Source: Prochlorococcus sp. AG-409-D09 (GTDB taxonomy: Bacteria > Cyanobacteriota > Cyanobacteriia > PCC-6307 > Cyanobiaceae). Taken from it: 37,168 nt of DNA. The translations under genes and the position numbers were made by a program. A model generated the notes under the pieces. That model searched no databases, was not told the origin of the DNA, and saw only the letters and a list, made by a program, of their open reading frames with translations. The DNA is taken from positions 1 to 37,168 of the forward strand of contig QCJQ01000008.1 of the NCBI GenBank assembly GCA_003215935.1. Reading direction: 5' to 3'. The stretch's first letter is position 1. Each line of letters begins with the position of its first letter. This document shows, in pieces, positions 1,660-33,181 of the stretch.

Positions 1660-3276
1660 TTATATTTCATTTATTAGATCCTTATATTTAACATTGTTGG
1701 TTATTATTTCAATAGCGGGCCTAAGAATTGTGCGGTAATTCTTCCATCCTCCACTTGACTTTGTATAGATTGGTTGACGAACCTGTAGCCTACTTGCAGT
1801 TAAAACTGATCTATTACTTAGGTGAGGTGATAGATATGAATCTTTCCAATCAAAACTAATCCAACGTATTAAATCCTTAATTACTTTTCTTGGATTTTTA
1901 ACTAATTTATCGTAGTTCAAACTATATATTTGTGACCTATATTTTTCTTTGTATTTAGACATTATGTTATCTTGGTCTATATATACTTTTGCACAATCTA
2001 TTAATGAAGATGCATAATTATGCCCTTTATCAAAATGTACCCTGTATAAAGAAAGTATGTTATCTAAAGGATTTCTGTAACAATGTATAATTTTTGAATT
2101 AGTAATTTGGTTTGCTATTATCCCTGCATATTGATAATTATAGAGCCACTTATTTGTTGTGATATCTGGTTTATTGGTTAATTTATTTATATTAAATTGA
2201 TATAAATCTTCCAAGCTTGAAATTTGTCTATGGCAATTAGAATTCTCCCACTCTATGAAAGATTCTTCCAATATATTAGTTTCACCGAGGGCATAGATTT
2301 CTTTATTCATATTGATGATTGATTCTATTAAGGTACTCCCACTCCTTGGCATACCGACGATAAAAATATACATTTTACTCGTTTTTGTTTTCATTTCTTT
2401 GTGTTTAAGTTGATTAGATTTGGCTTCCAAGATTTTTGATTTATCAGTAATTTCTGTAATAGTATATGGGTATATATTTTTTCTAATATTATTTGCTACT
2501 TTTAGATATTGACCACTTTTTTCATAATTTTTTCTTTTATGTAAAAGATTAGATCTTGCTTTATAGAGGCATACAAGATTGATGTTAGATTGATTTTTTA
2601 AAATATCCTCTGAAAAGAGTCTTTTTTCCCATTCTTGTTCTTTAGATATATCTATTAGCTGTGTAAGTGAGAAGATTGACTGAGCAAGATTAGGATTTTT
2701 AGAAAGCGCTTGTTGAAAAAAATTCTTTGCTTTTTGCAGGTTACCCATCTTTTCATGGATTACCCCCATGTTATTGAGATGGATTGCACAATTTGAGTCT
2801 ATTTCAATAAGTTTTTGATTGATTACTTTTGCTTTATTTAAATCACCAACTTCTTGGTAGCAAAATGCTAATGCAACTAAATCTTTATGATTATTAGGTT
2901 CAACTTCTAATGCACTTTCTAAATAATTTATAGATTCAACATATGAACCGATATCTTTTAATAGATGACCTAGATTAGATAATAGTGATGGAATACGAGG
3001 ATTAAATTTAGTATATATTTTAAGAATTTTAATAGCATTTTTGATCTTCCCTTGCTTTAAATATATTTTACAGAGATCATTAAAAATAACGCTGTCTTTT
3101 ACCCCTTGCTCTATTAGTTTCAAGTAAATGACTTCTACTTTTTTATATTGACTCTTGGATAAAAATATAGCTGCTTTTTTTTTTAAATTTTCTATATTTT
3201 TGGCTTTATAGATTATTTTATTTTTATACGTGGCATTACCTTGACCAAAGCCTTTTGGAGATTTCACTGAAATCAA
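1660..3276 (-). CDS. TPR-repeat sulfotransferase
   Basis: A 538-aa two-domain protein. Residues about 25-240 are tandem TPR-like helices; repeats such as LSNLGHLLKDIGSYVESINY and LNNMGVIHEKMGNLQKAKNF are visible. Residues about 300-530 form a sulfotransferase domain: it opens with IVGMPRSGST (residues 307-316), the 5'-phosphosulfate-binding loop for PAPS, and continues with ALGETNILEE and CYRNPLDNILSLYR, the usual 3'-phosphate-binding region. Known members transfer sulfate from PAPS to protein, glycan or lipid acceptors; the TPR half probably selects the acceptor. It stands alone, with no co-oriented partner. There is no signal peptide, so it is likely cytoplasmic. The substrate is not predictable from sequence. 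Confidence 0.9.
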   Translation of the reverse strand: MISVKSPKGFGQGNATYKNKIIYKAKNIENLKKKAAIFLSKSQYKKVEVIYLKLIEQGVKDSVIFNDLCKIYLKQGKIKNAIKILKIYTKFNPRIPSLLSNLGHLLKDIGSYVESINYLESALEVEPNNHKDLVALAFCYQEVGDLNKAKVINQKLIEIDSNCAIHLNNMGVIHEKMGNLQKAKNFFQQALSKNPNLAQSIFSLTQLIDISKEQEWEKRLFSEDILKNQSNINLVCLYKARSNLLHKRKNYEKSGQYLKVANNIRKNIYPYTITEITDKSKILEAKSNQLKHKEMKTKTSKMYIFIVGMPRSGSTLIESIINMNKEIYALGETNILEESFIEWENSNCHRQISSLEDLYQFNINKLTNKPDITTNKWLYNYQYAGIIANQITNSKIIHCYRNPLDNILSLYRVHFDKGHNYASSLIDCAKVYIDQDNIMSKYKEKYRSQIYSLNYDKLVKNPRKVIKDLIRWISFDWKDSYLSPHLSNRSVLTASRLQVRQPIYTKSSGGWKNYRTILRPAIEIITNNVKYKDLINEI

Positions 3277-9792: not shown

Positions 9793-10704
9793 ATGCAATC
9801 AAACACTTCTCAGATGGATTATGTCCTTCCAAATGAATTAGTAGATGGAATGATTACGGCAGGAGGAAAGAAATCAAATGTTAGCGTAAAAAATTTATTA
9901 TTACGTGGCTTCTATTCAGGAGCGATTCTTGGGTTGGCAACCTGCCTTGCAATTACGGTAGGTATTCAGTCAGGAATGCCTTTTTTGGGATCTGTTATTT
10001 TTCCTTTTGGTTTTGCAAGCATCGTCCTTTTTGGAATGGAATTAGTTACTGGAAATTTTGCTTTGCTACCTATGGCTACGTGGGCTGGAAAAAGTACATG
10101 GCAAGCTACTTTTAGGAATTGGATGTGGGTATGGCTAGGCAATTTTTTAGGAACGGCACTTGTTGCATTTTTATTGTCTATTAGTCTTACTAGTGCGGGG
10201 ACCGTAGAACCATTAGCTGCTGCTGCTGGAGGTAAAGGTTGGGCTATTGTTGCTGCAAAAATTATTGCAATTAACAAAGCAAATGTTCTTGTTAAGTATC
10301 AATCATTAGGAAGTACAGGATTCTTTTTGGCTTTTTTACGTGGTGTCATTGCTAATTGGTTGGTTTGTTTAGGTGTGACAATGGCATTGGTTAGTAAAAG
10401 TGTGCCTGGAAAAATCCTTGCTTGTTGGCTACCAATTACTGCTTTCCAAACGATGGGCATGGAACATATTGTAGTTAATATGTTCTTACATACTGCTGGT
10501 CCTCTTTTAGGTTCTGGCGTTAGGTTTGATCAGGTATTATTGTGGAATTTTCTCCCAGTAACATTAGGCAATATTGTAGGTGGGATGGTATTTATTGGAA
10601 TGCTTTTCTATAGTACTCATAGGACTAAGATGAGTAATGTATTGCCTACTGTTCATGATGAGAAGTTAGAGAGAGAATTGGCTGCTGAATTAGGAGCACG
10701 TTAA
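9793..10704 (+). CDS. focA: Formate/nitrite (FNT) family transporter
   Basis: A 303-aa FNT-family channel/transporter of the inner membrane, expected to pass nitrite given its place after nirA. It shows six hydrophobic segments between residues about 35 and 280. The conserved pore His is His225 in GMEHIVVNMF. Gly-rich FGMELVTGNF and LGNIVGG segments correspond to the broken-helix parts of the FNT pore. The start MQSNTSQMDYVLPNELVDGM resembles the usual N-terminal amphipathic helix of the family. It lies 8 bases before the next gene, so they are likely co-transcribed in a nirA-small gene-focA-HEAT operon. Formate as substrate cannot be excluded but is less likely in this context. Confidence 0.95.
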   Translation: MQSNTSQMDYVLPNELVDGMITAGGKKSNVSVKNLLLRGFYSGAILGLATCLAITVGIQSGMPFLGSVIFPFGFASIVLFGMELVTGNFALLPMATWAGKSTWQATFRNWMWVWLGNFLGTALVAFLLSISLTSAGTVEPLAAAAGGKGWAIVAAKIIAINKANVLVKYQSLGSTGFFLAFLRGVIANWLVCLGVTMALVSKSVPGKILACWLPITAFQTMGMEHIVVNMFLHTAGPLLGSGVRFDQVLLWNFLPVTLGNIVGGMVFIGMLFYSTHRTKMSNVLPTVHDEKLERELAAELGAR

Positions 10705-10712
10705 TAATATTC

Positions 10713-11429
10713 ATGGCTATTTCTCAAGATCAAATATGGGATACGTTTAACCATAATAAACCCATATTTATTGACGCTACCTGGTTGCAAACTGTTTATT
10801 CGTTAGATCTTTCTATTGAATTACGCCACATCATTGCTGAACGACTAGGAATATTAGCTGATATAGGCTGGGAAGCGATTAAAGCTCTTTTAAAGGAGTA
10901 TGGTACTCAACCTGAATTGATACATGCTGCTGGTTTATGTCATCAAAAAGAAGCCTTTAATTTTTTATTAATGCTTTTTAGAGAACAAAGTAGCCCTGAC
11001 ATTACTATTGTCAGGGCTCTAGAATGTTGGGGGGCAATGATTCCAACTGCTGATTTAAAAAAAATTCTAAAATGTCACTCGTTAGAGTTGCGTCTGGCTG
11101 GACTTAATCTTCTTCGTTTTAAATCCCACTTACTTAAGGCATCAGAGCTACTTGAATTGGTGGAACACTTGTTAGATGATTTCCGGGATGAAGTAGTCAT
11201 ACAAGTTATAAAAATTCTTCAGCGTCGTGATGAACAAAGAATTATTAATTGCATTGGAAAAATAGCAAGTCATGGAACGGATCAAGTAGTAGAAACTGCT
11301 TTAATTGCTTTGGGATCTATAGGAACTCAACACAGCGCATTAGAGTTATATTCATTATCTAGAGAATTAGTCACAACAAGTCACAGGGAAATTGCTGAAA
11401 AGCAAATCTCACATCAATATATCGATTAA
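10713..11429 (+). CDS. HEAT-like repeat protein of the nitrite cluster
   Basis: A 238-aa, mostly helical soluble protein. Repeating helical pairs with Leu/Ala/Ile spacing (for example LELVEHLLDDFRDEVVIQVI and VVETALIALGSIGTQHSALE) indicate HEAT/PBS-lyase-type repeats in the C-terminal 150 residues. It begins 8 bases after focA, which implies a shared transcript. In other marine cyanobacteria an uncharacterised gene called nirX accompanies nirA; this could be that gene, but I cannot confirm it. HEAT repeats usually bind proteins, so an assembly or regulatory role for NirA or FocA is plausible inference. A strong hairpin is embedded in its coding sequence at 10992-11018. Confidence 0.8.
   Translation: MAISQDQIWDTFNHNKPIFIDATWLQTVYSLDLSIELRHIIAERLGILADIGWEAIKALLKEYGTQPELIHAAGLCHQKEAFNFLLMLFREQSSPDITIVRALECWGAMIPTADLKKILKCHSLELRLAGLNLLRFKSHLLKASELLELVEHLLDDFRDEVVIQVIKILQRRDEQRIINCIGKIASHGTDQVVETALIALGSIGTQHSALELYSLSRELVTTSHREIAEKQISHQYID
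10992..11018. repeat. Perfect 10-bp inverted repeat inside a gene
   Basis: AGCCCTGACA (10992-11001), a 7-nt loop, then TGTCAGGGCT (11009-11018). It is GC-richer than the surroundings and lies within the HEAT-like coding sequence. No T tract follows, so it is not a classical terminator. Confidence 0.85.
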
Positions 11430-11518
11430 TCTCACATTGAATTATTTTGATGAGTTGATCTTCATTTTATTTACATAATTTTCTTATTAGGTCTACATCT
11501 AGGACTTAGAATCATTAT

Positions 11519-11646
11519 TTAAGGGGTCCCAAGAAAGATCACTCTTTGTGGTGAATGGGGAAAGAGGTGAAAACCGCTGCTTTTTCCCTGCAGCTGTGAA
11601 GTGTCGATTTTGTTCTATCCCAGTAAGAATACCCGCCTCTTTTTAA
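11519..11646 (+). promoter_or_regulatory. Cobalamin riboswitch
   Basis: The conserved core elements occur in order: GGGGAAAGAGGTGAAAACCGC, then the B12-box part CCCTGCAGCTGTGA, then CCAGTAAGAATACCCGCCT. These match the consensus of adenosylcobalamin-type riboswitches (GGTGAAAAyC, C-rich CtGTGA, GCCAGrAtACCnGCC-like end). It ends about 20 bases before the hupE start, where it could mask the ribosome-binding site when cobalamin is bound. The exact 5' limit is estimated. Confidence 0.9.
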
Positions 11647-11664
11647 TACGACCAGGATCAATTC

Positions 11665-12297
11665 ATGAGCTTTTTAAGTTTGTTTCGCAAGAATTTATTT
11701 TTGCTCTTAGCGTCATCATTTTTGTTATTTACTTCTTTAGCTTCTTCAGCCTTTGCTCATCATCCTTTTGGAATAGGTGATGGTTCTAAGTTATCGGTTA
11801 TGCAGGCTTTTTTTAGTGGTATTGGGCATCTATTGCTTGGTCCTGACCATTTACTTTTTATGTTAGGTCTAATTCTTGTAGGAATAAAAAGAACTAAGAA
11901 ATCTCTTTTGCTTCTGTTATTAGTTGGTTTAGCAGGAAGTGCATATGTACAGGTTCAGCCTTTACCAGATTTACTTGCTCCTTGGGCGGAAGCACTGGTC
12001 TCCTTATCTTTGGCATTAGAAGGCTTAATTGTTTTGAATTGTTTGAGTTCAAAATGGCTTTTCCCAATGTTTGCTTTACATGGTTATTTGCTTGGGAACA
12101 CAATTGTTGGCGCTGAAGCAACACCTCTGGCTGGCTATTTTCTTGGTCTTCTACTTGCTCAAGGCTCTTTATTGATTCTTGCAACATTTTTATCGCAAAA
12201 GGTTCTTAAGAGATTTGATTTGAAGAGTAGAAACTTGTTTGCAGGTGTTTGGATAGGTATAGGGTTGGCCTTTTCTTGGGTTGCTTTTATTGCATAG
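11665..12297 (+). CDS. hupE: HupE/UreJ family metal permease, probably cobalt
   Basis: A 210-aa inner-membrane protein. Residues 1-31 form a signal peptide (LFLLLASSFLLFTSLASSAFA with cleavage before HHPFG). The HupE/UreJ signature follows: HHPFGIGDG and GIGHLLLGPDHLLFMLG, with several His and Asp likely to ligate the metal, then about five further hydrophobic segments. Family members move Ni2+ or Co2+. The cobalamin riboswitch directly upstream points to cobalt uptake for B12 synthesis, repressed when B12 is plentiful. It is near but not obviously co-transcribed with the nitrite operon (235-base gap). Confidence 0.88.
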   Translation: MSFLSLFRKNLFLLLASSFLLFTSLASSAFAHHPFGIGDGSKLSVMQAFFSGIGHLLLGPDHLLFMLGLILVGIKRTKKSLLLLLLVGLAGSAYVQVQPLPDLLAPWAEALVSLSLALEGLIVLNCLSSKWLFPMFALHGYLLGNTIVGAEATPLAGYFLGLLLAQGSLLILATFLSQKVLKRFDLKSRNLFAGVWIGIGLAFSWVAFIA

Positions 12298-12428
12298 GAT
12301 TTTATTAGCATTCTGAGAAGATACGAAATTTAGATAGGATTGTATTCTTAGAGAAATAATATGGATATGTAGTTAAATTATTTATAGATTATTTCCTAAT
12401 ATGTTGATCTACCAGGAGCAAATAGCTC

Positions 12429-12557
12429 ATGAAAAGTAACGATAGTATTATCTTTGCAGTACTATTCTTTTGAATTGTTTGTGTTTATTTCTTTGGAGGT
12501 TACGTAGATAAAAGATTTACTTTATTATTATTTAGAAGATACCTTTTACATTATTAA
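12429..12557 (+). pseudogene. Small membrane protein gene with in-frame TGA
   Basis: Reading from the ATG at 12429, which follows an AGGAG-type ribosome site (near 12414-12418), gives MKSNDSIIFAVLFF, then TGA (12471-12473), then IVCVYFFGGYVDKRFTLLLF... to TAA (12555-12557). Reading through the TGA as Trp would give a 42-residue single-span membrane protein. The good ribosome site and continuous hydrophobic span on both sides of the stop suggest a small gene with a recent nonsense change. It could also be chance. Confidence 0.35.
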
Positions 12558-12615
12558 ATCTTATATTTTTATAGCCTATAAGTCATTGGATATGGTTAGG
12601 TTGAAAATTATATTT

Positions 12616-12822
12616 TTAGGCAGCTAGGTCTTCGATTTGTAGCTGCTTAGCAATCAATTGATCAACTTCATCACCTTTGGTTTTTTGACGTATGTACTCC
12701 ATATAATCAATTACTACAGCTGTTTTTTCCGCTTTTATGCGAATGTTATTTAAGATTATTAAGCAAGGAGCAATAGTAAAAAAGCAAATAGAGCAAATAA
12801 GAATAGAGATTTCTGCGGGCAT
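12616..12822 (-). CDS. Small single-pass membrane protein ending in -AA
   Basis: A 68-aa protein from the ATG at 12822 (MPAEISILICSICFFTIAP...); a TTG at 12840 is also in frame. One membrane segment (residues about 5-25) is followed by a charged cytoplasmic helix with EKTAVVIDYMEYIRQKTKGD and the tail QLQIEDLAA. Two Cys lie inside the membrane segment. The family is unknown. The C-terminal Leu-Ala-Ala equals the last three residues of an ssrA-type degradation tag, so rapid turnover is conceivable. There is no co-oriented neighbour. Confidence 0.58.
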   Translation of the reverse strand: MPAEISILICSICFFTIAPCLIILNNIRIKAEKTAVVIDYMEYIRQKTKGDEVDQLIAKQLQIEDLAA

Positions 12823-22572: not shown

Positions 22573-23082
22573 TCACTTATATATCGAGTTCATATTAATG
22601 ATAATATATATAAATATTAATAATAGCAGCAGAGGGATACTACTAACAGTAATTGCAACAATAGAAATGAAAGTGATTATAATTAAAATTATCTTAATTA
22701 TCCTTAGAATTTCTTTTAAATAAAATAGAATCAAATTACTATTGATTCGTCTATATCTTTGTTGTATTTGGTTCCGTTTAATTATAGCTTCTTTTAGAGA
22801 TTTTATATGCCAATTAATTGATTGATTAATAGAGATTTGATAGTATTTCTTTTGAATTAAATTAAACCAATTTTTATCTTTAGTTATAATTGACTTTATT
22901 TTCACAATTTGAACCTCAATTAGTCCTTTAATTAGTTCTTTTATTTCGTTATCAATTTTTCTTTGTTCATTCTTAAGAATCTCTTTTGGAGATTGATAAC
23001 TTGTTTTTTTGTAGACTGTGACAGACCCTTTGTTTGATTGTTCCGAGGAAAAGAATATAGATTTCAGCAAATTTTTCTTCAT
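22573..23082 (-). CDS. Helical protein with C-terminal membrane segment
   Basis: A 169-aa basic protein. Residues about 30-125 are helical and Ile/Lys-rich (ILKNEQRKIDNEIKELIKG...). The C-terminal 45 residues form one or two membrane spans (IIKIILIIITFISIVAI and IPLLLLLIFIYIIINM). The family is unknown. Its 5' end (23018-23082) overlaps the longest form of the divergent GT4 gene, so one of the two starts may be misplaced. It may be a membrane-anchored partner of the glycan genes, but that is only positional inference. Confidence 0.48.
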   Translation of the reverse strand: MKKNLLKSIFFSSEQSNKGSVTVYKKTSYQSPKEILKNEQRKIDNEIKELIKGLIEVQIVKIKSIITKDKNWFNLIQKKYYQISINQSINWHIKSLKEAIIKRNQIQQRYRRINSNLILFYLKEILRIIKIILIIITFISIVAITVSSIPLLLLLIFIYIIINMNSIYK

Positions 23083-24199
23083 TTTATTTAATAAGCTGAT
23101 TAGAATTCTGAAAATAGGGTTAGAGACTTACCGTATGCCCTTTGGACTCTTTAATGGAAGTTATCTTTCCAAAAGGAACACTGGTATTGGAGTTGTAGCA
23201 AAAAATCTTATTCAATTTTTGTCTCCAGATATATTTAGGATACTAGACCCATTACATAGTGATAGAGATGGATGTATACCAATTCCTCAAAAGCTATCGC
23301 CTAATTATGGGATGCGAGGGCATATAAGACGATTGTTTTGGATGCAAACTCAACTCCCCTTAATTTTAAAGAAATCTGGAGCAGAATTTTTAATGTCTCC
23401 TTTGCCAGAGATTCCTCTTTTTAGTTCTGTTCCTTCAATTGTATTAGCACATGATTTAATTCCTATTCGTTACCCTTCATTTTCATTCCTTACACTCCAT
23501 AATGCTACTTATGTTCCTTTAGTATTTAATCAAGCAAAATTAATTTTCTGCAATTCAATTTCTACGGCCACAGATATTAATAAATTTTATGGTATTCCTT
23601 TTTCAAAATTATATCCAATCAGATTAGGCTTTGATAAAAGCAAGTTTTATAATCTTAATCTTACTAGAGAGAATTTTTTTTTAATTATAGGAAGACATAA
23701 CCCACATAAGAATCTTCAAAGAGTACTTAGATCATTTGCTTTACTTAGTGATAAAAATTTTAAATTGATCTTTGTAGGTCCAATAGACGCTAGATATACC
23801 CCTTCTTTGCAAAGACTTGCTAAGGAATTAAATATTTCTGATAGATGTATTTGGAAAGGCTGGGTATCTGATAAGGAAAAATTATTTCTTTTAAATAAAT
23901 GTCATGCTCTTCTTTTGCTCAGTTTGTGGGAAGGTTTTGGATTGTCGGCTTTAGAAGCAATGGCTTGTGGAACAACAGTTCTTGTTTCTAACAAGGGTGC
24001 ATTAAAAGAGGTTGTTGGTGATGTGGGATATTCAGTTGATCCTTTAGATGTTATGGCAATCACATCTTTAATGAATGAAATTATAAATAATTATTCATTA
24101 CTTAAATTATCTGCTAAGCAAGGTCCTAATAGAGCTGCTTTATTTAATTGGGAACAGACTGCTAGGGAAATAGAAAAGATTTTAATAGATAAATTGTAG
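23018..24199 (+). CDS. GT4-family glycosyltransferase
   Basis: A retaining GT-B glycosyltransferase of family 4, which uses a nucleotide-sugar donor in the cytoplasm. It contains the N-terminal TGIGVVAKNL loop, the hinge and donor domain with IIGRHNPHKNL, LIFVGP and GWVSDKEKL, and the EX7E motif (Glu305 and Glu313 in WEGFGLSALEA). The GTG at 23018 is the only usual start that includes the first beta strand (ILKIGLETYRM). The ATG at 23135 would cut that strand, so the true start may be a CTG or ATT near 23100. Total 393 aa as given. It heads the glycan region; the sugar and acceptor are unknown. Confidence 0.9.
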   Translation: MTDPLFDCSEEKNIDFSKFFFILFNKLIRILKIGLETYRMPFGLFNGSYLSKRNTGIGVVAKNLIQFLSPDIFRILDPLHSDRDGCIPIPQKLSPNYGMRGHIRRLFWMQTQLPLILKKSGAEFLMSPLPEIPLFSSVPSIVLAHDLIPIRYPSFSFLTLHNATYVPLVFNQAKLIFCNSISTATDINKFYGIPFSKLYPIRLGFDKSKFYNLNLTRENFFLIIGRHNPHKNLQRVLRSFALLSDKNFKLIFVGPIDARYTPSLQRLAKELNISDRCIWKGWVSDKEKLFLLNKCHALLLLSLWEGFGLSALEAMACGTTVLVSNKGALKEVVGDVGYSVDPLDVMAITSLMNEIINNYSLLKLSAKQGPNRAALFNWEQTAREIEKILIDKL

Positions 24200-24554: not shown

Positions 24555-26078
24555 ATGAATCTGTTGAAAAATATAAACATGAAAGAAAGAATCGATGTTT
24601 TATTTGCTAAAAATTCTGTATTTCTACCCATTTCTTTAGGTTTAATACTTAGGGTTATAAATATTGATGCACCTATAATTGGAGTTCATAGTTGGAGGCA
24701 AGCTGACACAGCATCTATTATTAGAAATTTTTACTTAAATGGACTATCTATAGCTTTTCCTCAAGTTGATTGGGGTGGAGATTCCTCTGGATTTGTTGAA
24801 TCTGAATTTCCTTTGTATCAGTATTCTGTTGCTTTTTTATATAAGATCTTTGGTCTGCATGAATTTTTAGCAAGAGGATTTTCTATTTTCTGTAGTTGTT
24901 TAACGATATTTTTTTTGTATCGTCTTTCTAAATATATTTTCAATTCAAAAGTTGCTTGGTGGACTGCTATTTTTTATGCTTTTTTACCTTTATCTGTTTA
25001 TTACGGACGAACAGTTCAGCCAGAATCTCTCATGATGCTTTGTTCTATCATTTGTCTTGAAAGATGGTTTTTATTTTTAAAATACAATGAAAATAAATAT
25101 TTAATTTTTTCATGGATTGCATTTACTTTAGCTGTTCTTGTTAAAGGTTTGCCTTTAATATGGTTAGGAATACCTATATTTTTAACGGCTATTAAGAGAG
25201 GTTTGATTAAAGATATTAGATTTATTTTATGTCCAATTTTAACATTATTTGTGGCCACTATTTGGTTTGTGCATGCTCATCATTTAGGTAATTCGACAGG
25301 GTTAAGCTTTGGACTCTGGGGTTCGAATACTGGAAGGTATGCGTGGAATGAGTTATTTGAAAATGGATATCTGATTAATACTATTTTTAGAATAATATTT
25401 AGAAATTTATTAGTCTTGGGTTTGCCATTACTTTTATTGGGTTTTTATAGATTAAATGTGACTAATTTATTTATTTTAGGAATATTTTCAGTATCTATTA
25501 CAGGAATATTAAACCCTTCATCATTTGCTATCCATGAGTATTATCAATTGCCTTATATGATTTTCTTTTGCCCTCTTATAGCAAGAGGATTTGTTTTTCT
25601 CATAGAGAGAATACAGAATAAAAAATTACCATACATTATTGTTATTATTTTATTTACGGGAAGTATGATCATGTTAAATATAGATTATTGGAAATTAGAA
25701 AATCCAATTAATAGTGCAGTTTGGCAGAATTCAAAAATTATAAAAAAATATACTGAACGAGATGCACTGGTTGTTGGTGTTACGTATGGTGATCCAACTT
25801 TATTATACTTGTCTTCTCGAAAGGGTTGGCTTGTTTCCCCTTATATTTTAGATCGTAAAAAGCTTTTAGATTTTAAAAGAAAAGGTGCAAATTATCTCAC
25901 AGGAAGTTGGGATGTAGTTCAAAGTTATAATTCTTTTAATGATTCAAAAGCAAAGCAAGAATTACGTGATTTAATTTGTTTAAATGAATTAAATTCAAAC
26001 AGTGAAAACTCTGAGCTCTATCACATTAGTTGTAACAAGAATTCAAACGCCTATCTTGTTCCATTAAGTGATTATTGA
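24555..26078 (+). CDS. GT39/ArnT-like polytopic glycosyltransferase
   Basis: A 507-aa GT-C enzyme with about 11-12 membrane spans and a short C-terminal soluble part. The N-terminal loop has HSWRQADTASIIRNF, the segment with the catalytic Asp in PMT/ArnT-type enzymes, followed by a second loop with FVESEFPLYQY. Such enzymes transfer a sugar from a polyprenyl-phosphate carrier to lipid, glycan or protein on the outer face of the membrane. The DprE1/DprE2/UbiA genes next door are predicted to make a polyprenyl-phosphate pentose, so that lipid is a candidate donor. This is inference; mannose- or other sugar lipids are equally possible. It converges on dprE1 with a 24-base gap. Confidence 0.9.
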   Translation: MNLLKNINMKERIDVLFAKNSVFLPISLGLILRVINIDAPIIGVHSWRQADTASIIRNFYLNGLSIAFPQVDWGGDSSGFVESEFPLYQYSVAFLYKIFGLHEFLARGFSIFCSCLTIFFLYRLSKYIFNSKVAWWTAIFYAFLPLSVYYGRTVQPESLMMLCSIICLERWFLFLKYNENKYLIFSWIAFTLAVLVKGLPLIWLGIPIFLTAIKRGLIKDIRFILCPILTLFVATIWFVHAHHLGNSTGLSFGLWGSNTGRYAWNELFENGYLINTIFRIIFRNLLVLGLPLLLLGFYRLNVTNLFILGIFSVSITGILNPSSFAIHEYYQLPYMIFFCPLIARGFVFLIERIQNKKLPYIIVIILFTGSMIMLNIDYWKLENPINSAVWQNSKIIKKYTERDALVVGVTYGDPTLLYLSSRKGWLVSPYILDRKKLLDFKRKGANYLTGSWDVVQSYNSFNDSKAKQELRDLICLNELNSNSENSELYHISCNKNSNAYLVPLSDY

Positions 26079-26102: not shown

Positions 26103-27485
26103 CTATATTGCCAATCTTTTAGATAAATCTGATGAGAACTTATTATCCGGATCAAGAATATTCTTGATTTTTTGCCATTCTTTTAATTTTGGATAACATA
26201 ATCGGAAAATTTCAGGAGACATTCTTGAATCTTTAGCTAGATAAATTTTTCCACCAGCATCAGATATTTTTTCATCAAGTTTATTTAAAGTTAGTGTTAA
26301 ATTAGGTAATGATGCAGGGATATCAATAGCTAATGTCCAACCTTTTGATGGGAATGATAAGAGACCAGGGTTATTAAATCCAAAACGCTTTAGAACAGTT
26401 AAGAAGCTAGGTGCGCCAAGTTCTCTCAGTGTAGAGAGTGATTCAGGAATTATTTCTGACGAATTATCTGGAACTACAAATTGATATTGTATAAACCCTT
26501 TTTTTCCGTAGATATTATTCCAATTATCAATACCATCCAAAGGATAGAAATACTCTCCTATGCTTATTATTTGATTTTCTTTTTGATTAGGATATTTCCT
26601 ATACCATGCTTCATTGAATGCCCTGACAGTAAAAACATTTAATAAGCCACTTGGAAAAATATTAGGAGCTTTAGCGATACTTTTATTTGAATACTCTAAT
26701 TTTTCTTTATTGGTTTTCGTATTAATATCTTCTACTAATGCATGTTCTCCAAAAGTAATAACACCTCTGCCTTTTGGATGAAGGCTATCAATCCAAGCAA
26801 CACTATATTTATATTTTTCATCATTTTTTATCATTGTATCCATAATATTTTCTAAGCTTTTATATTTAAAGGTATCTACTTTTATTAGTGAACTTTTAAT
26901 TGGAATTACCGAGAAAGTTGCTTCTATAATTATGCCTGTAAGGCCCATTCCACTAACAGTTGCCCAAAACTCTAAAGCGCTGTTAGATTGATTATTCTGA
27001 TCAGGGAATAGTTGTTTTAAGATACCTTTTCCATCTATTAAAACTATGCTTTTAATATGATTGCCAAAGCTTCCATCTATATGATGATTCTTACCATGAA
27101 TATCTGCAGCTATTGCTCCACCAACAGTTATATGTTTTGTGCCAGGAGTCACTGGTAAGAAGTATCCTTTTGGAATTAAGTATTTTAATAACTCATCAAA
27201 GGATACACCTGCTTCAGCAGTAACTGTCTTTTCAAAAATATTAAGCGATATTTTTTTGAAATTCGATAATTCAATTATTGAAGCCCTGTTGTTTTGTGCA
27301 GCATCTCCATATGAACGACCTAAGCCACGAGCAATGAGTGATTTAGGAGGACTGTTTGAAATAACTTCTTGAATTTCTTCAATCTTAGAGGGTGCAATTC
27401 TTTCAACATTGGCTTTTTTAGTATGCCCCCAACCAGTGACTGTAATCATTTGATTCGACTGATGAGACTTTTGAGAATATTTCAC
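26103..27485 (-). CDS. dprE1: DprE1-like FAD oxidase of polyprenylphosphoryl ribose
   Basis: A 460-aa FAD enzyme of the DprE1 family, which oxidises the 2'-hydroxyl of polyprenylphosphoryl-beta-D-ribose to a keto sugar. FAD-binding segments RGLGRSYGDAAQNN and TPGTKHITVGGAIAADIHGK (followed by NHH) match the family closely, as does the substrate-end Lys418 in AKDSR. The C-terminus LDPDNKFSSDLSKRL is also typical. The residue equivalent to the mycobacterial Cys387 is Ala386 (GWTLAIDIP). Start codon overlap with dprE2 is 4 bases. In mycobacteria the product pair DprE1/DprE2 makes the arabinofuranosyl donor. Here the lipid chain length is unknown. Confidence 0.92.
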   Translation of the reverse strand: MKYSQKSHQSNQMITVTGWGHTKKANVERIAPSKIEEIQEVISNSPPKSLIARGLGRSYGDAAQNNRASIIELSNFKKISLNIFEKTVTAEAGVSFDELLKYLIPKGYFLPVTPGTKHITVGGAIAADIHGKNHHIDGSFGNHIKSIVLIDGKGILKQLFPDQNNQSNSALEFWATVSGMGLTGIIIEATFSVIPIKSSLIKVDTFKYKSLENIMDTMIKNDEKYKYSVAWIDSLHPKGRGVITFGEHALVEDINTKTNKEKLEYSNKSIAKAPNIFPSGLLNVFTVRAFNEAWYRKYPNQKENQIISIGEYFYPLDGIDNWNNIYGKKGFIQYQFVVPDNSSEIIPESLSTLRELGAPSFLTVLKRFGFNNPGLLSFPSKGWTLAIDIPASLPNLTLTLNKLDEKISDAGGKIYLAKDSRMSPEIFRLCYPKLKEWQKIKNILDPDNKFSSDLSKRLAI

Positions 27486-28243
27486 AATTTAGAGATAAAT
27501 ATACTAGGTAGAAATTTAATAATGGTCATTATTATTGACCACCACCATGGTAAATATTCAATGCCACGTCGATTCGGATTTTTAAGTAGAATTTTTGCTA
27601 CTTTTGATGTTTTTGTGCATAACAAAGGAGAAGCTTTTTTCAGTGTCGGTGGTGTAGCTAAATAACCAGCTTTAATTAAACGAATAGAAAAAGGTTTTGC
27701 ATTGCATCTATATAAAAGACCTTGGCAAAGTATAGATAGAGCTGATTTAGCGGCTCCATAATGATAATTACTCGGTCTTCCTATATCTCCTGCAACTGAG
27801 CTGAAAACCCATAATCTTCCTTCTTTTGCAATTCTTTCTTCTGAGGTGATTGCGGTTATCCAAGGTAAGATTCCACTATAATTTATTTCTGTAATCTTAT
27901 GAGCATCATTAATTTTACTTTTTGGTGACAAATCGTCTCCAATACTACCGGCGGTAATTAAATATAAATCAAAATCTTTTATTTTGGGAAGAGATGAATT
28001 CAATATACATGAATTCGATAAAAGGTTGAATTCTTCTTGTATGACATCAGCTCCGTAATTATTGGTCAGATGTAAAAATAATTTATGATTAAGCTCTAAA
28101 TTTCTAGCTAAAAGATGAAATTTTTTACAGCCTTTTTCTGCTAGTTCTATGCATATTGATTGAGCAACTAAGCTAGTACTGCCAAGAATAAATGCACTTT
28201 TAATATAATTCTTTTTAGACTTCCTAAGTATTTGCTTTTTCAT
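27482..28243 (-). CDS. dprE2: DprE2-like SDR reductase
   Basis: A 253-aa short-chain dehydrogenase/reductase. The NAD(P)-binding turn is GSTSLVAQS, the core has ITAGSIGDD, and the catalytic Ser/Tyr/Lys set is FSSVAGDIGR with YHYGAAKSAL. The C-terminal hydrophobic helix (WWWSIIMTIIKFLPSIFI) is typical of DprE2 and suggests membrane contact. It reduces the DprE1 keto product to the arabino epimer. It overlaps dprE1 by 4 bases and follows the UbiA gene by 3 bases, forming a tight operon in the order UbiA-DprE2-DprE1. Confidence 0.92.
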   Translation of the reverse strand: MKKQILRKSKKNYIKSAFILGSTSLVAQSICIELAEKGCKKFHLLARNLELNHKLFLHLTNNYGADVIQEEFNLLSNSCILNSSLPKIKDFDLYLITAGSIGDDLSPKSKINDAHKITEINYSGILPWITAITSEERIAKEGRLWVFSSVAGDIGRPSNYHYGAAKSALSILCQGLLYRCNAKPFSIRLIKAGYLATPPTLKKASPLLCTKTSKVAKILLKNPNRRGIEYLPWWWSIIMTIIKFLPSIFISKL

Positions 28244-28246
28244 TTT

Positions 28247-29191
28247 TTATATCTTGACAATAGTTGTGATTCCAATAATAAACGTTGTTAATAGCCATCC
28301 AAGTAATGTTAATTGAATTCCTTTATCATGTATGAGGATTTCTTCTGGATTTTCTCCGGTGTAGCATTTGCTAATAGATTGTCTTCTATTAACTTCTGAA
28401 GGATCAGTTAGCAATTGGTATCTAAAAATACCTACTAATACAAAGGGAACTGTGATCAACATCCAGCTTGTTTTGGCTCCATTTAATGAAGGGCCAGCAG
28501 CCCATAAAGCATATGTTACAAAGGAACTAGTTGATACAAGGCTTTCTATTCTAAGTAATAAAGGTAAAGAGTATCTTTTTAATACTTTTCTACTATTATT
28601 TTTTCCTTCTGAAAAAATCCTTAATTCTGCCTTCCTTTTTTCCAAGGCTAGAAATAATGCTAGTAAACCTATTGTTAATAAGAACCATGGAGAGATTGTA
28701 AGTTTTGAGGTAATTCCACCTGCTATAGCTCTAAGCAAAAAACCACTAGAGATGCAAAACAGGTCAATTAAAGGGTATTGTTTAAGTTTGATGCAATAGC
28801 CAATTTGTATTGCTATGTATGAAATGAGCGTATAAAAGAGGAAAATATTTGCTTGAAAACTTATAGATAATCCTAAAACTGCAAGAAAAATTGCAAGTAA
28901 AATAGCTTCAGTAATAGAAATCTTACCTGCACTAATGGGCCTCAATTTCTTAATAGGGTGATTTCTATCACTTGAGACATCTAAACAATCATTTATCAAA
29001 TAGATTGACGAAGATATTAAACAAAAACAAAATAATGCTTTAAATGATTCTATCCAGATTGCTGAATCTATTTGAAAACTAAAAATAGGTGCTGCGAAAA
29101 CAAGTAAATTTTTTGTCCAGTGATTTACCCTAATTGCTTTTAAATAATACTTTAATTTTTTCAAAGATCTTTTTAATTGCAATTCTAACAT
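28247..29191 (-). CDS. UbiA-family phosphoribosyl-polyprenyl transferase
   Basis: A 314-aa UbiA-superfamily membrane enzyme with about nine hydrophobic segments. It begins with an RVNHWTKNLLVFAAPIFSF region and has the aspartate-rich motif INDCLDVSSDRNHPIKKLRP. These resemble decaprenyl-phosphate phosphoribosyltransferase, which moves 5-phosphoribose from PRPP onto a polyprenyl phosphate. It is first in an operon with dprE2 and dprE1, which supports this substrate over ubiquinone-type aromatics. The phosphatase step that follows in mycobacteria has no candidate in this window. Promoter not identified. Confidence 0.9.
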   Translation of the reverse strand: MLELQLKRSLKKLKYYLKAIRVNHWTKNLLVFAAPIFSFQIDSAIWIESFKALFCFCLISSSIYLINDCLDVSSDRNHPIKKLRPISAGKISITEAILLAIFLAVLGLSISFQANIFLFYTLISYIAIQIGYCIKLKQYPLIDLFCISSGFLLRAIAGGITSKLTISPWFLLTIGLLALFLALEKRKAELRIFSEGKNNSRKVLKRYSLPLLLRIESLVSTSSFVTYALWAAGPSLNGAKTSWMLITVPFVLVGIFRYQLLTDPSEVNRRQSISKCYTGENPEEILIHDKGIQLTLLGWLLTTFIIGITTIVKI

Positions 29192-30055: not shown

Positions 30056-31879
30056 TTATAATTTATTTTGAGCTACATTAATCATTTTTTCAAAGCTTTT
30101 AGAAGTTTTTAAGAGCTTCTCGTATTTTCCTGACGCTTTTATGCGCCCATTTTCAAATTCATATATATAATCAGCGCGAACGATCGTTGAGATTCTATGG
30201 GCTATGACTACAATCGTACATCTTCTACCAATCAGTTCGATTCCATTCATTACTTCATGTTCAGTCTTATTATCTAATGCACTTGTAGCTTCATCTAATA
30301 TTAGAAATTTTGATTCTCTATAAAGTGCTCTTGCTAAAGCTACTCGCTGTCTTTGCCCACCAGAAAGTCTTACTCCATTTTCTCCAATTTGAGTATATAG
30401 TCCATTAGGTAAATTAGATATCACATCTAATAGCTGTGCTGATTCCAGACAATCCCAAACTCTATTAATATCAATTTCTTTTTCTTTTAACCCATAAGCT
30501 ACATTTTCAATTATATTTGTATTTAATAAAGAGATATTTTGAGGAACATAAGAGCAACAGGCTTGCCAATCAGGAACTTCTTTCTCATTAATGTTAATTC
30601 CATCTAATAATAACTCACCAGAAGTTGGCCGAAGCAAACATAAAAGTTGATTAGCTGTTGTTGTTTTTCCACTTCCAGTTCTTCCTACAAAAGCAATTTT
30701 ACCTCCTACAGGAATAGTTATATTTATATTCTCTAATGCCAATTTGTTAGTAAGAGGATATTTATAATTTAAACTTCTAAGTTGAATAGTATTTAAAGGT
30801 GCGATCCCTTGTGATTTTTGAATATTTGAAATTTTTGTTGATTTCCTATATAACGGCAATTCTATTAACTTTAGAGTTTCTTCTAGGTCAGGAATAGCTG
30901 CTCGAAGTTGTATAAGAGAACTGAATGAATCTTGAAGAGGACCAGTTAATTTTAATGCTGAAACAGCTATAGTAGCTAAAAAAGGAATTATATCCAAAAT
31001 ATTTTTTGGATTAAGACCATTGTAAAAAGGAATTAATCCTATAGAAAAAATCAAAGTTATACCAAATGGTTCAATTAATGCTCTAGGTACTCTAGGTAGA
31101 ACTCTTGATTTCCATATATAAGGGGAAGCTTTAGAACTGGCAAATTTATATTTATTTTCAAAATATTTTTCGCTACTTGTTAAGTATATATCTACAATTG
31201 TTTTTGTTGACTCATTTAAAATATTATTAGTAGTATTTTCTAGTTTTATTCTTTGGCTATTTGAAAATCTTATATATGGTGTTACTAGGTAGGATATAAA
31301 TGCATAGAATATTATTAAACTAATAATTAAATATATTGCTGTAGCCTTTGCAATATTTAAAACTGCTATAAAAAGAAGAGAAACTACAAATACGCTACTT
31401 ACTAACTTAATAATCGGTAATACAAATGTTAGTGAGACTCTCTCAATATTTAATAAAATTTTTGTTGATAAATTTTGATTAGCCTTACTTAGAAAAAATT
31501 CATAAGGCTGTGACATAATTTTTTGATGAGCTAATTTAGATAAATCAAACCAAATAGAAACTCGTAATTTTTCTTGAATGGAAATTAAAATTAGCCTCAA
31601 TATTGATGCGAGCCAATTCATTAGAATATATAACCCAACTAGTATTAATATTTTTGAAGTGGGATCACTTGGTATAAATTCAGGTATAGGTATAGACGGA
31701 GTATTTGGTCTTCCTGCAACTATTGTGAAAATTCTTGAGATCAAACTTATAACAATTACATCAGCGAAACCGCTTATAATTGCTATTGGTATAAGTAAAA
31801 TTAGCGATCTTCTTCTAACTACCGGTAGGTTCTTGTAAAGACGAACCAGTAGATTAAATGTTTTGCTTGCAGAATTCAT
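30056..31879 (-). CDS. ABC exporter, fused permease-ATPase
   Basis: A 607-aa half-transporter. Residues about 20-320 carry six membrane spans of the type IV exporter fold. The nucleotide-binding domain holds Walker A GRTGSGKTT (residues 399-407), the signature LSGGQRQRVALARAL (from 505), Walker B FLILDEATSALD and the switch His in VIAHR. It works as a homodimer, or heterodimer, that moves lipid, glycolipid or peptide outward. The setting, between glycan genes, makes a lipid-linked glycan flippase (MsbA/PglK-like) likely; drug or peptide export cannot be excluded. The start codon at 31879 lies within an inverted repeat. Confidence 0.94.
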   Translation of the reverse strand: MNSASKTFNLLVRLYKNLPVVRRRSLILLIPIAIISGFADVIVISLISRIFTIVAGRPNTPSIPIPEFIPSDPTSKILILVGLYILMNWLASILRLILISIQEKLRVSIWFDLSKLAHQKIMSQPYEFFLSKANQNLSTKILLNIERVSLTFVLPIIKLVSSVFVVSLLFIAVLNIAKATAIYLIISLIIFYAFISYLVTPYIRFSNSQRIKLENTTNNILNESTKTIVDIYLTSSEKYFENKYKFASSKASPYIWKSRVLPRVPRALIEPFGITLIFSIGLIPFYNGLNPKNILDIIPFLATIAVSALKLTGPLQDSFSSLIQLRAAIPDLEETLKLIELPLYRKSTKISNIQKSQGIAPLNTIQLRSLNYKYPLTNKLALENINITIPVGGKIAFVGRTGSGKTTTANQLLCLLRPTSGELLLDGININEKEVPDWQACCSYVPQNISLLNTNIIENVAYGLKEKEIDINRVWDCLESAQLLDVISNLPNGLYTQIGENGVRLSGGQRQRVALARALYRESKFLILDEATSALDNKTEHEVMNGIELIGRRCTIVVIAHRISTIVRADYIYEFENGRIKASGKYEKLLKTSKSFEKMINVAQNKL

Positions 31880-32155: not shown

Positions 32156-33181
32156 GTGAATTTTAATCATTCATATTTAATTAATAGTCAATTATATCCT
32201 ATGCTATGTAAATCATTTTTAAAGATTTGTTCAAATAATCAGGTAGGATTTAAAGGAGTTAGTATTGAAAAATCTTACGTTAATTTAAATACAAAAATAT
32301 CTATTCATAAAAATGATTCTAATAATATAGATGTAGAAATATTCATTTCAAATAGTTTATCTTCTTCATCAACCCAGGTGAAGCGAGTAATTAAATGCTA
32401 TAAATTTTGGATTCCATATTGCATTACAATTTTTCATAAGATAAATAATTCATTTTCATTAAAGATTAATGCTTGTGATATAGGAGTTGAAGGGTTTCTT
32501 TCAATGACCTCAGAAAATCAGAATAATATTATCCCCGATGAATATTCTATGATCGAGAGTTTAAAGTTAAACTCTAAAATTATTAATTTAAAATATAATA
32601 ATTTTTCTAGGGATTGGTTGAATCGAAAGCCTCTAATCTATTGGAGAGGGAGTACTACAGGGAGCAAGATTACTTCTTTAGATAAATTAAAAAGACTTTT
32701 GAGAGTTCAAACTTGTTTTAAATACAAAAATCATAGTGCAGTTGACTTGAAAATTACTAATATTGTTCAGAACGAAATACCTAAAAAGATAGTAAAAAAT
32801 TGGTTGAGACAAAACTCTATTGCAGCAGGTAGAGTATTAGAGTCATCCTTTAAAGCTTATAAGTATCATCCTGATATTCCTGGAAATAATACTTCCTGTG
32901 GTTCTTGGGGGGTTATTCGAAAATATTTAAATGGAATTCTGATATTTCGACCAAATCATAAAAGTTTTATGTTTTATGATAGGTACTTGTTTCCATGGAT
33001 TAACTATATCCCTGTAAAGGATGATTTTTCAGATTTATTTGAAAAATATACATGGGCTCAAAAAAATCAATATCAAGCACTTTATATAGCTTGGCAAGGC
33101 TATTTGATGGCCAAAAGTTATTTGTCTAATATTGAGAACTCTTTCATGGAAAATTCTCTTGATAATATTGAGTTAATTTAA
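32156..33181 (+). CDS. GT90 (CAP10-like) glycosyltransferase
   Basis: A 341-aa protein of the CAP10/GT90 family, whose known members transfer xylose or glucose. The signature segments are LIYWRGSTTG (Trp163-Arg-Gly) and, later, YHPDIPGNNTSCGSWGVIRK with a Gly/Ser-rich donor-site loop and PWINYIPV. The GTG at 32156 gives the complete domain; an ATG at 32201 would shorten the N-terminus. Its stop overlaps the stop of the convergent GT32-like gene by 4 bases. It is the only plus-strand gene in the 30-37 kb part and may have its own promoter. Substrate unknown; a pentose acceptor would fit the neighbours. Confidence 0.85.
   Translation: MNFNHSYLINSQLYPMLCKSFLKICSNNQVGFKGVSIEKSYVNLNTKISIHKNDSNNIDVEIFISNSLSSSSTQVKRVIKCYKFWIPYCITIFHKINNSFSLKINACDIGVEGFLSMTSENQNNIIPDEYSMIESLKLNSKIINLKYNNFSRDWLNRKPLIYWRGSTTGSKITSLDKLKRLLRVQTCFKYKNHSAVDLKITNIVQNEIPKKIVKNWLRQNSIAAGRVLESSFKAYKYHPDIPGNNTSCGSWGVIRKYLNGILIFRPNHKSFMFYDRYLFPWINYIPVKDDFSDLFEKYTWAQKNQYQALYIAWQGYLMAKSYLSNIENSFMENSLDNIELI

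Follow-up and report, generated by a model that had tools for sequence, protein, structure and literature searches.

A predicted operon for a lipid-linked D-arabinofuranose donor, with an actinobacterial-type DprE1, in Prochlorococcus

D-arabinofuranose (D-Araf) is best known from mycobacterial walls. The enzymes and the pathway logic that supply lipid-linked pentofuranoses are known in mycobacteria, Pseudomonas, and Citrobacter, and homologs of DprE1 and DprE2 occur in candidate systems of Araf-containing glycans (PMC11127046). Our literature search, outside of which most subscription journals lay, found no work linking DprE1 or D-Araf biosynthesis to cyanobacteria and no sugar chemistry for the strains considered here.

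The window, which is the whole stretch of 37,168 nucleotides analyzed from Prochlorococcus sp. AG-409-D09, is contig C8 of genome G000 (1.22 Mb, 65%-complete). Three ORFs encoding a UbiA-superfamily protein, an SDR, and DprE1 were found on the minus strand exactly where the original prediction had placed them (Table 1). The UbiA stop and the SDR start are 3 nt apart and the SDR and DprE1 genes overlap by 4 nt, suggesting one coupled transcript. The strong signatures ascribed to this tightly packed set were all found (NDCLDVSSD, YGAAK, and HGKNHH) and, judged by the scores and E values of DprE1 and UbiA, presence of the three-gene set by chance is excluded. The window also encodes a cyanobacterial-type AbrB-like regulator along with a nitrite transporter and a nitrite/sulphite reductase.

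Table 1. The putative operon and neighboring genes in the window.
Feature	Position	Strand	Basis and remarks
UbiA-superfamily polyprenyl-phosphate phosphoribosyltransferase (Rv3806c / DPPRS type), predicted	28247..29191	-	314 aa, operon gene 1; NF008978, PDB 8j8j, catalytic residues
DprE2-type SDR (putative 2'-keto reductase), divergent	27482..28243	-	253 aa; PF00106, signature, synteny
DprE1 (predicted FAD-dependent polyprenyl-P-ribose 2'-oxidase), actinobacterial-type	26103..27485	-	460 aa; NF053785, PDB 4aut, motifs, tree
GT-C membrane glycosyltransferase (PMT_2), convergent neighbor	24555..26078	+	PF13231, 58 bits
GT4 glycosyltransferase	23018..24199	+	PF00534; neighbor common to L141-L143
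MsbA/PglK-like ABC exporter	30056..31879	-	PF00005 and PF00664; common to L141-L143

The mycobacterial DPA pathway (Rv3806c, Rv3807c, DprE1, DprE2, and Rv3789) and the window have in common a phosphoribosyltransferase, DprE1, and a DprE2-type reductase with conserved catalytic residues. In contrast to that pathway, the order in the window is DprE2-DprE1, the incomplete genome yielded no PAP2 phosphatase, there was no sign of cell-wall arabinogalactan, and Ala occupies the position of Cys387 in DprE1 of Mtb, the residue targeted by benzothiazinones. The Citrobacter youngae O1/O2 pentofuranose three-component systems (PMC11127046) share with the window a polyprenyl phosphoribose synthase, epimerizing enzymes, and a GT-C in a surface-glycan gene region, but the window UbiA has no PRP/HAD domain, no MATE flippase was recognized, the GT-C was not assigned to GT136, and in relatives the fusion partner of the HAD domain is an MprF-like flippase domain and not UbiA. 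As for a three-component set in the window, a GT-C and an ABC exporter lie nearby and the search of the 65%-complete genome yielded no phosphatase. With the D-Araf pilin glycosylation of Pseudomonas (PMC11127046) the window has in common a phosphoribosyltransferase ortholog and a proposed supply of an Araf donor, whereas the window contains no pilin gene or TfpW-type context. The compact UbiA-GtrA-DprE1-DprE2 operons of Rhizobium and Ruegeria (L214 and L215) encode the same three enzymes, but their UbiA is longer (480-513 aa), GtrA is inside the operon, and DprE1 precedes DprE2; both are located on plasmids, which shows that a plasmid can carry the pathway. We place the window operon among the pentofuranose-donor pathways, and the picocyanobacterial form may be a distinct variant.

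The UbiA protein passed the NCBIfam equivalog for decaprenyl-phosphate phosphoribosyltransferase (NF008978; 241.4 bits, cut-off 207) and matched the solved mycobacterial phosphoribosyltransferase (PDB 8j8j; E 6e-43). Alignment showed that it keeps the catalytic residues N67, D68, D71, and D75 of loop II and K185, R186, and E189 of loop IV; the mycobacterial row came from the 8j8j match apart from its first 16 residues, on which no conclusion rests. Mutagenesis showed the N, D, D, and D of loop II and the R and E of loop IV to be important (PMC11127046). The window UbiA is thus predicted to be a polyprenyl-phosphate phosphoribosyltransferase that would use PRPP and polyprenyl phosphate.

DprE1 of the window scored 498.5 bits (E 2e-149) against the NCBIfam equivalog NF053785, 1.5 bits short of the cut-off of 500, and other Cyanobiaceae DprE1s scored 513-560 bits. 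It aligned end to end (residues 16-459, E 5e-99) with the solved mycobacterial DprE1 (PDB 4aut) and contains the HGKNHH and YLAKDSR (AKDSR) motifs. DprE1 was not found in the phages or viral contigs searched, and phage carriage of the operon was rejected on these grounds.

The SDR, judged by its model scores, is the weakest of the three assignments. It matches PF00106, and its scores were below threshold for the DprE2 NCBIfam equivalog (72.8 bits, cut-off 250) and lower than the cut-off of 267 for PRK07102 (125 bits). The catalytic residues N121, S149, Y162, and K166 are kept, and the protein, whose gene adjoins that of DprE1, carries an SSVA-D-GRPSNY-YGAAK signature (general form SSVA-x-D-x-GR-x-SNY-x-YG-x-x-K) common to alphaproteobacterial and other cyanobacterial DprE2 members, with the close form SSVAGDRARRSNYVYGSTK in the actinobacterial locus L011. 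The SDR is syntenic with the cluster in about two dozen Cyanobiaceae loci. We named it DprE2-type, and not by the NCBIfam equivalog, because motif and gene neighborhood support the name while the score is under the cut-off.

The module is patchily spread in the Cyanobiaceae. DprE1 was detected in 31 of 400 Cyanobiaceae genomes, representing 12 of 59 genera, and in 16 of 386 genomes of a phylum-wide draw, five of the 16 being Cyanobiaceae. The phosphoribosyltransferase was detected in 35 of the 400 Cyanobiaceae genomes and together with DprE1 in 29 (p 6e-36; this and the other co-occurrence p-values assume independence among genomes, an assumption that does not hold). Most loci, with about two dozen in Cyanobiaceae besides the window, have UbiA, DprE2, and DprE1 together. 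The phosphoribosyltransferase was present without a detected DprE1 in G285 (locus L202), G296, G229, G236, G376, and G380, some of which are incomplete, and Cyanobiaceae of this kind might produce a ribofuranose rather than an arabinofuranose donor. An amine-oxidase-like protein (434 aa, PRK07233) accompanies the operon in 17 loci and an epimerase-like protein (312 aa) in 13, for example in the 10573-12815 region of L125; neither gene occurs in the window or in L141-L143.

In most relatives the cluster includes a protein (about 500-540 aa) that combines an N-terminal HAD-IB phosphatase domain, whose catalytic motifs are invariant, with a C-terminal LPG_synthase_TM domain. In the structural model the HAD part matched HAD-IB phosphatases and the membrane part matched MprF, the relative placement of the domains being unsure (pTM 0.51). 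The fusion or its HAD part was detected in 25 of the 31 genomes with DprE1 and in three of the 369 others, all three of which have the phosphoribosyltransferase. Compared against UbiA, the fusion was detected in 27 of 35 genomes with UbiA and in one of 365 without it (p 1e-33), and L202 has UbiA and the fusion without DprE1 or DprE2 nearby. By these counts and by L202, the fusion tracks the phosphoribosyltransferase, as expected of a 5'-phosphatase, and the HAD-MprF-like protein is a strong candidate for supplying the missing phosphatase activity in most relatives. The fusion also lies beside UbiA, DprE1, DprE2, and a GT87 GT-C in a distant cyanobacterium (L205).

In L141-L143 the fusion is located between UbiA and DprE2, a spot occupied in the window by 3 nt only. 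A phosphatase, which the original prediction had proposed to seek in this genome, was not found: 65%-complete G000 gave no match to the fusion, LPG_synthase_TM, or PAP2, and its HAD matches were weak. These HAD matches and the stand-alone GtrA genes on contigs C13 and C29 were rejected as genes for the missing steps, as neither have homologs of the cluster nearby. Since a third of G000 is missing, absence of the fusion does not show that it was lost. The fusion is also absent from three near-complete genomes that contain UbiA and DprE1 (G043, G370, and G381).

The convergent GT-C gene adjoins DprE1 in L141-L143 as well as in the window. Its model (pLDDT 83.7) has the fold of lipid-linked-sugar transferases and is nearest OST/ArnT; because OST and ArnT outrank the arabinosyltransferases AftA, AftB, and EmbB among the GT-C fold matches, structure cannot name its sugar. 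The family was detected in 74 of the 400 genomes, 60 of them without DprE1, and its enrichment was modest (14 of 31 DprE1 genomes vs. 60 of 369 others, p 3e-4), a difference that genome size may confound. A role as the dedicated arabinosyltransferase was unsupported and is not assigned, as the family occurs mostly without DprE1 and the fold matches many GT-C enzymes; the protein is a possible candidate for the Araf transferase. The ABC exporter scored 254 bits with the MsbA model and 235 bits with the PglK model, both under their cut-offs, and could be a flippase for the donor. Other genes noted in the window encode a CAP10-like GT90 glycosyltransferase close to the operon (32156-33181), a GT2-GtrA domain fusion with the last part of a DUF2079 membrane protein after it, close to where the contig ends (35632-37153), and a TPR protein whose C-terminal domain is a sulfotransferase (1660-3276).

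The operon very probably makes a polyprenyl-phosphate-linked D-arabinofuranose donor, and the original prediction to this effect was supported by the family assignments, catalytic residues, synteny, co-occurrence, and the test of UbiA against other prenyltransferases described below. In the proposed pathway, a phosphatase, which in most relatives would be the HAD domain of the MprF-like fusion, would remove the 5'-phosphate from lipid-linked ribose phosphate. DprE1, with FAD, would oxidize C2' of polyprenyl-P-ribose and the DprE2-type SDR would re-reduce C2' with inversion, forming arabinofuranose. We infer these reactions, the phosphatase or flippase role, the acceptor, and a surface glycan on which D-Araf is probably carried.

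Membership in the UbiA superfamily would, by itself, also fit a quinone, tocopherol, or chlorophyll prenyltransferase, with the oxidoreductases serving something else. Models for quinone, heme, tocopherol, and chlorophyll enzymes gave the window UbiA at most 30 bits, vs. 241 bits for the phosphoribosyltransferase. The three other UbiA proteins of G000 are a 4-hydroxybenzoate prenyltransferase, ChlG, and MenA, and the loop-IV KR-x-x-E motif of the window UbiA was not seen in these three as aligned here. Model scores, the motif, and the presence of quinone and chlorophyll enzymes elsewhere in the genome thus contradict the quinone or tocopherol affinity named beforehand as grounds for refutation, and such an enzyme, now extremely improbable, was rejected.

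The same first step could lead to a different lipid-linked pentofuranose if the SDR reduces without inversion or if extra oxidoreductases alter the sugar. The weak DprE2 score and the stem branch of the picocyanobacterial SDR clade, 2.96 changes per site in the tree, are consistent with such a product, as are the PRK07233-like and epimerase-like proteins of many relatives and the synthesis of Xylf by Citrobacter via a different epimerase (PMC11127046). This outcome is nonetheless unlikely, given that DprE1 is highly conserved, the SDR retains the DprE2 signature and catalytic residues, and the two extra genes are missing from the window and L141-L143. Even less probable is a decaying or stalled remnant that lost the phosphatase-flippase from between UbiA and DprE2 and makes lipid-linked ribose-5-phosphate that goes unprocessed. 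The 3-nt spacing at the site of the fusion in L141-L143 and the lack of a match in G000 point in this direction, but the three frames are intact with conserved catalytic residues, the near-complete G043, G370, and G381 keep UbiA and DprE1 without the fusion, and, with a third of G000 missing, another phosphatase may serve.

The phylogeny proposed with the original prediction placed two of the three proteins of the putative arabinofuranose donor operon. The DprE1 tree united 29 Cyanobiaceae sequences in one clade (SH-aLRT 98) nested in actinobacteria, adjacent to aquatic actinobacteria (support 99). The other cyanobacterial DprE1s were placed elsewhere, and a group of Cyanobiaceae and four of them was rejected (p 5e-127). 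In the UbiA tree, Cyanobiaceae grouped with other cyanobacteria (support 93), and a clade with aquatic actinobacteria was rejected (p 8e-4); the groups in both topology tests were named after the trees, which were quick ones without bootstrap, had been seen. Because long branches meet in the DprE2 tree, DprE2 was left unplaced and no origin was assigned to it. Gene order agrees with the DprE1 and UbiA trees in suggesting mosaic ancestry: DprE2 precedes DprE1 in the main Cyanobiaceae clade, and DprE1 precedes DprE2 in alphaproteobacteria, the other cyanobacteria, and almost all of the actinobacteria examined, L060 being an exception. The simplest reading is that the operon looks like an ancestral cyanobacterial one whose DprE1 was swapped for an actinobacterial one, with one gene of the three seemingly derived from aquatic actinobacteria.

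Whether the pathway takes a distinct form in picocyanobacteria, with DprE1 replaced by an actinobacterial one, a phosphatase-MprF-like fusion that dephosphorylates and may help flip the donor, and ribofuranose as the product where UbiA and the fusion occur without DprE1, seems to us evenly balanced. The novelty at the level of the lineage is the apparent mosaic origin of the operon together with the putative phosphatase-flippase fusion, the latter being a candidate for a step that varies among the known systems. Surface glycans influence the contact of phototrophs with phages and grazers. If the donor prediction is true, a rare, patchily distributed sugar would be added to the surface of an abundant phototroph group, and the arabinose prediction could be tested by comparing cultured strains that carry the operon with others that lack it. 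A second, unrelated Cyanobiaceae version was observed in G325 (L144, 7446-11347), consisting of a HAD-UbiA fusion, a GtrA-like ORF, DprE1, and DprE2, and its sequences group with alphaproteobacterial and other cyanobacterial ones.
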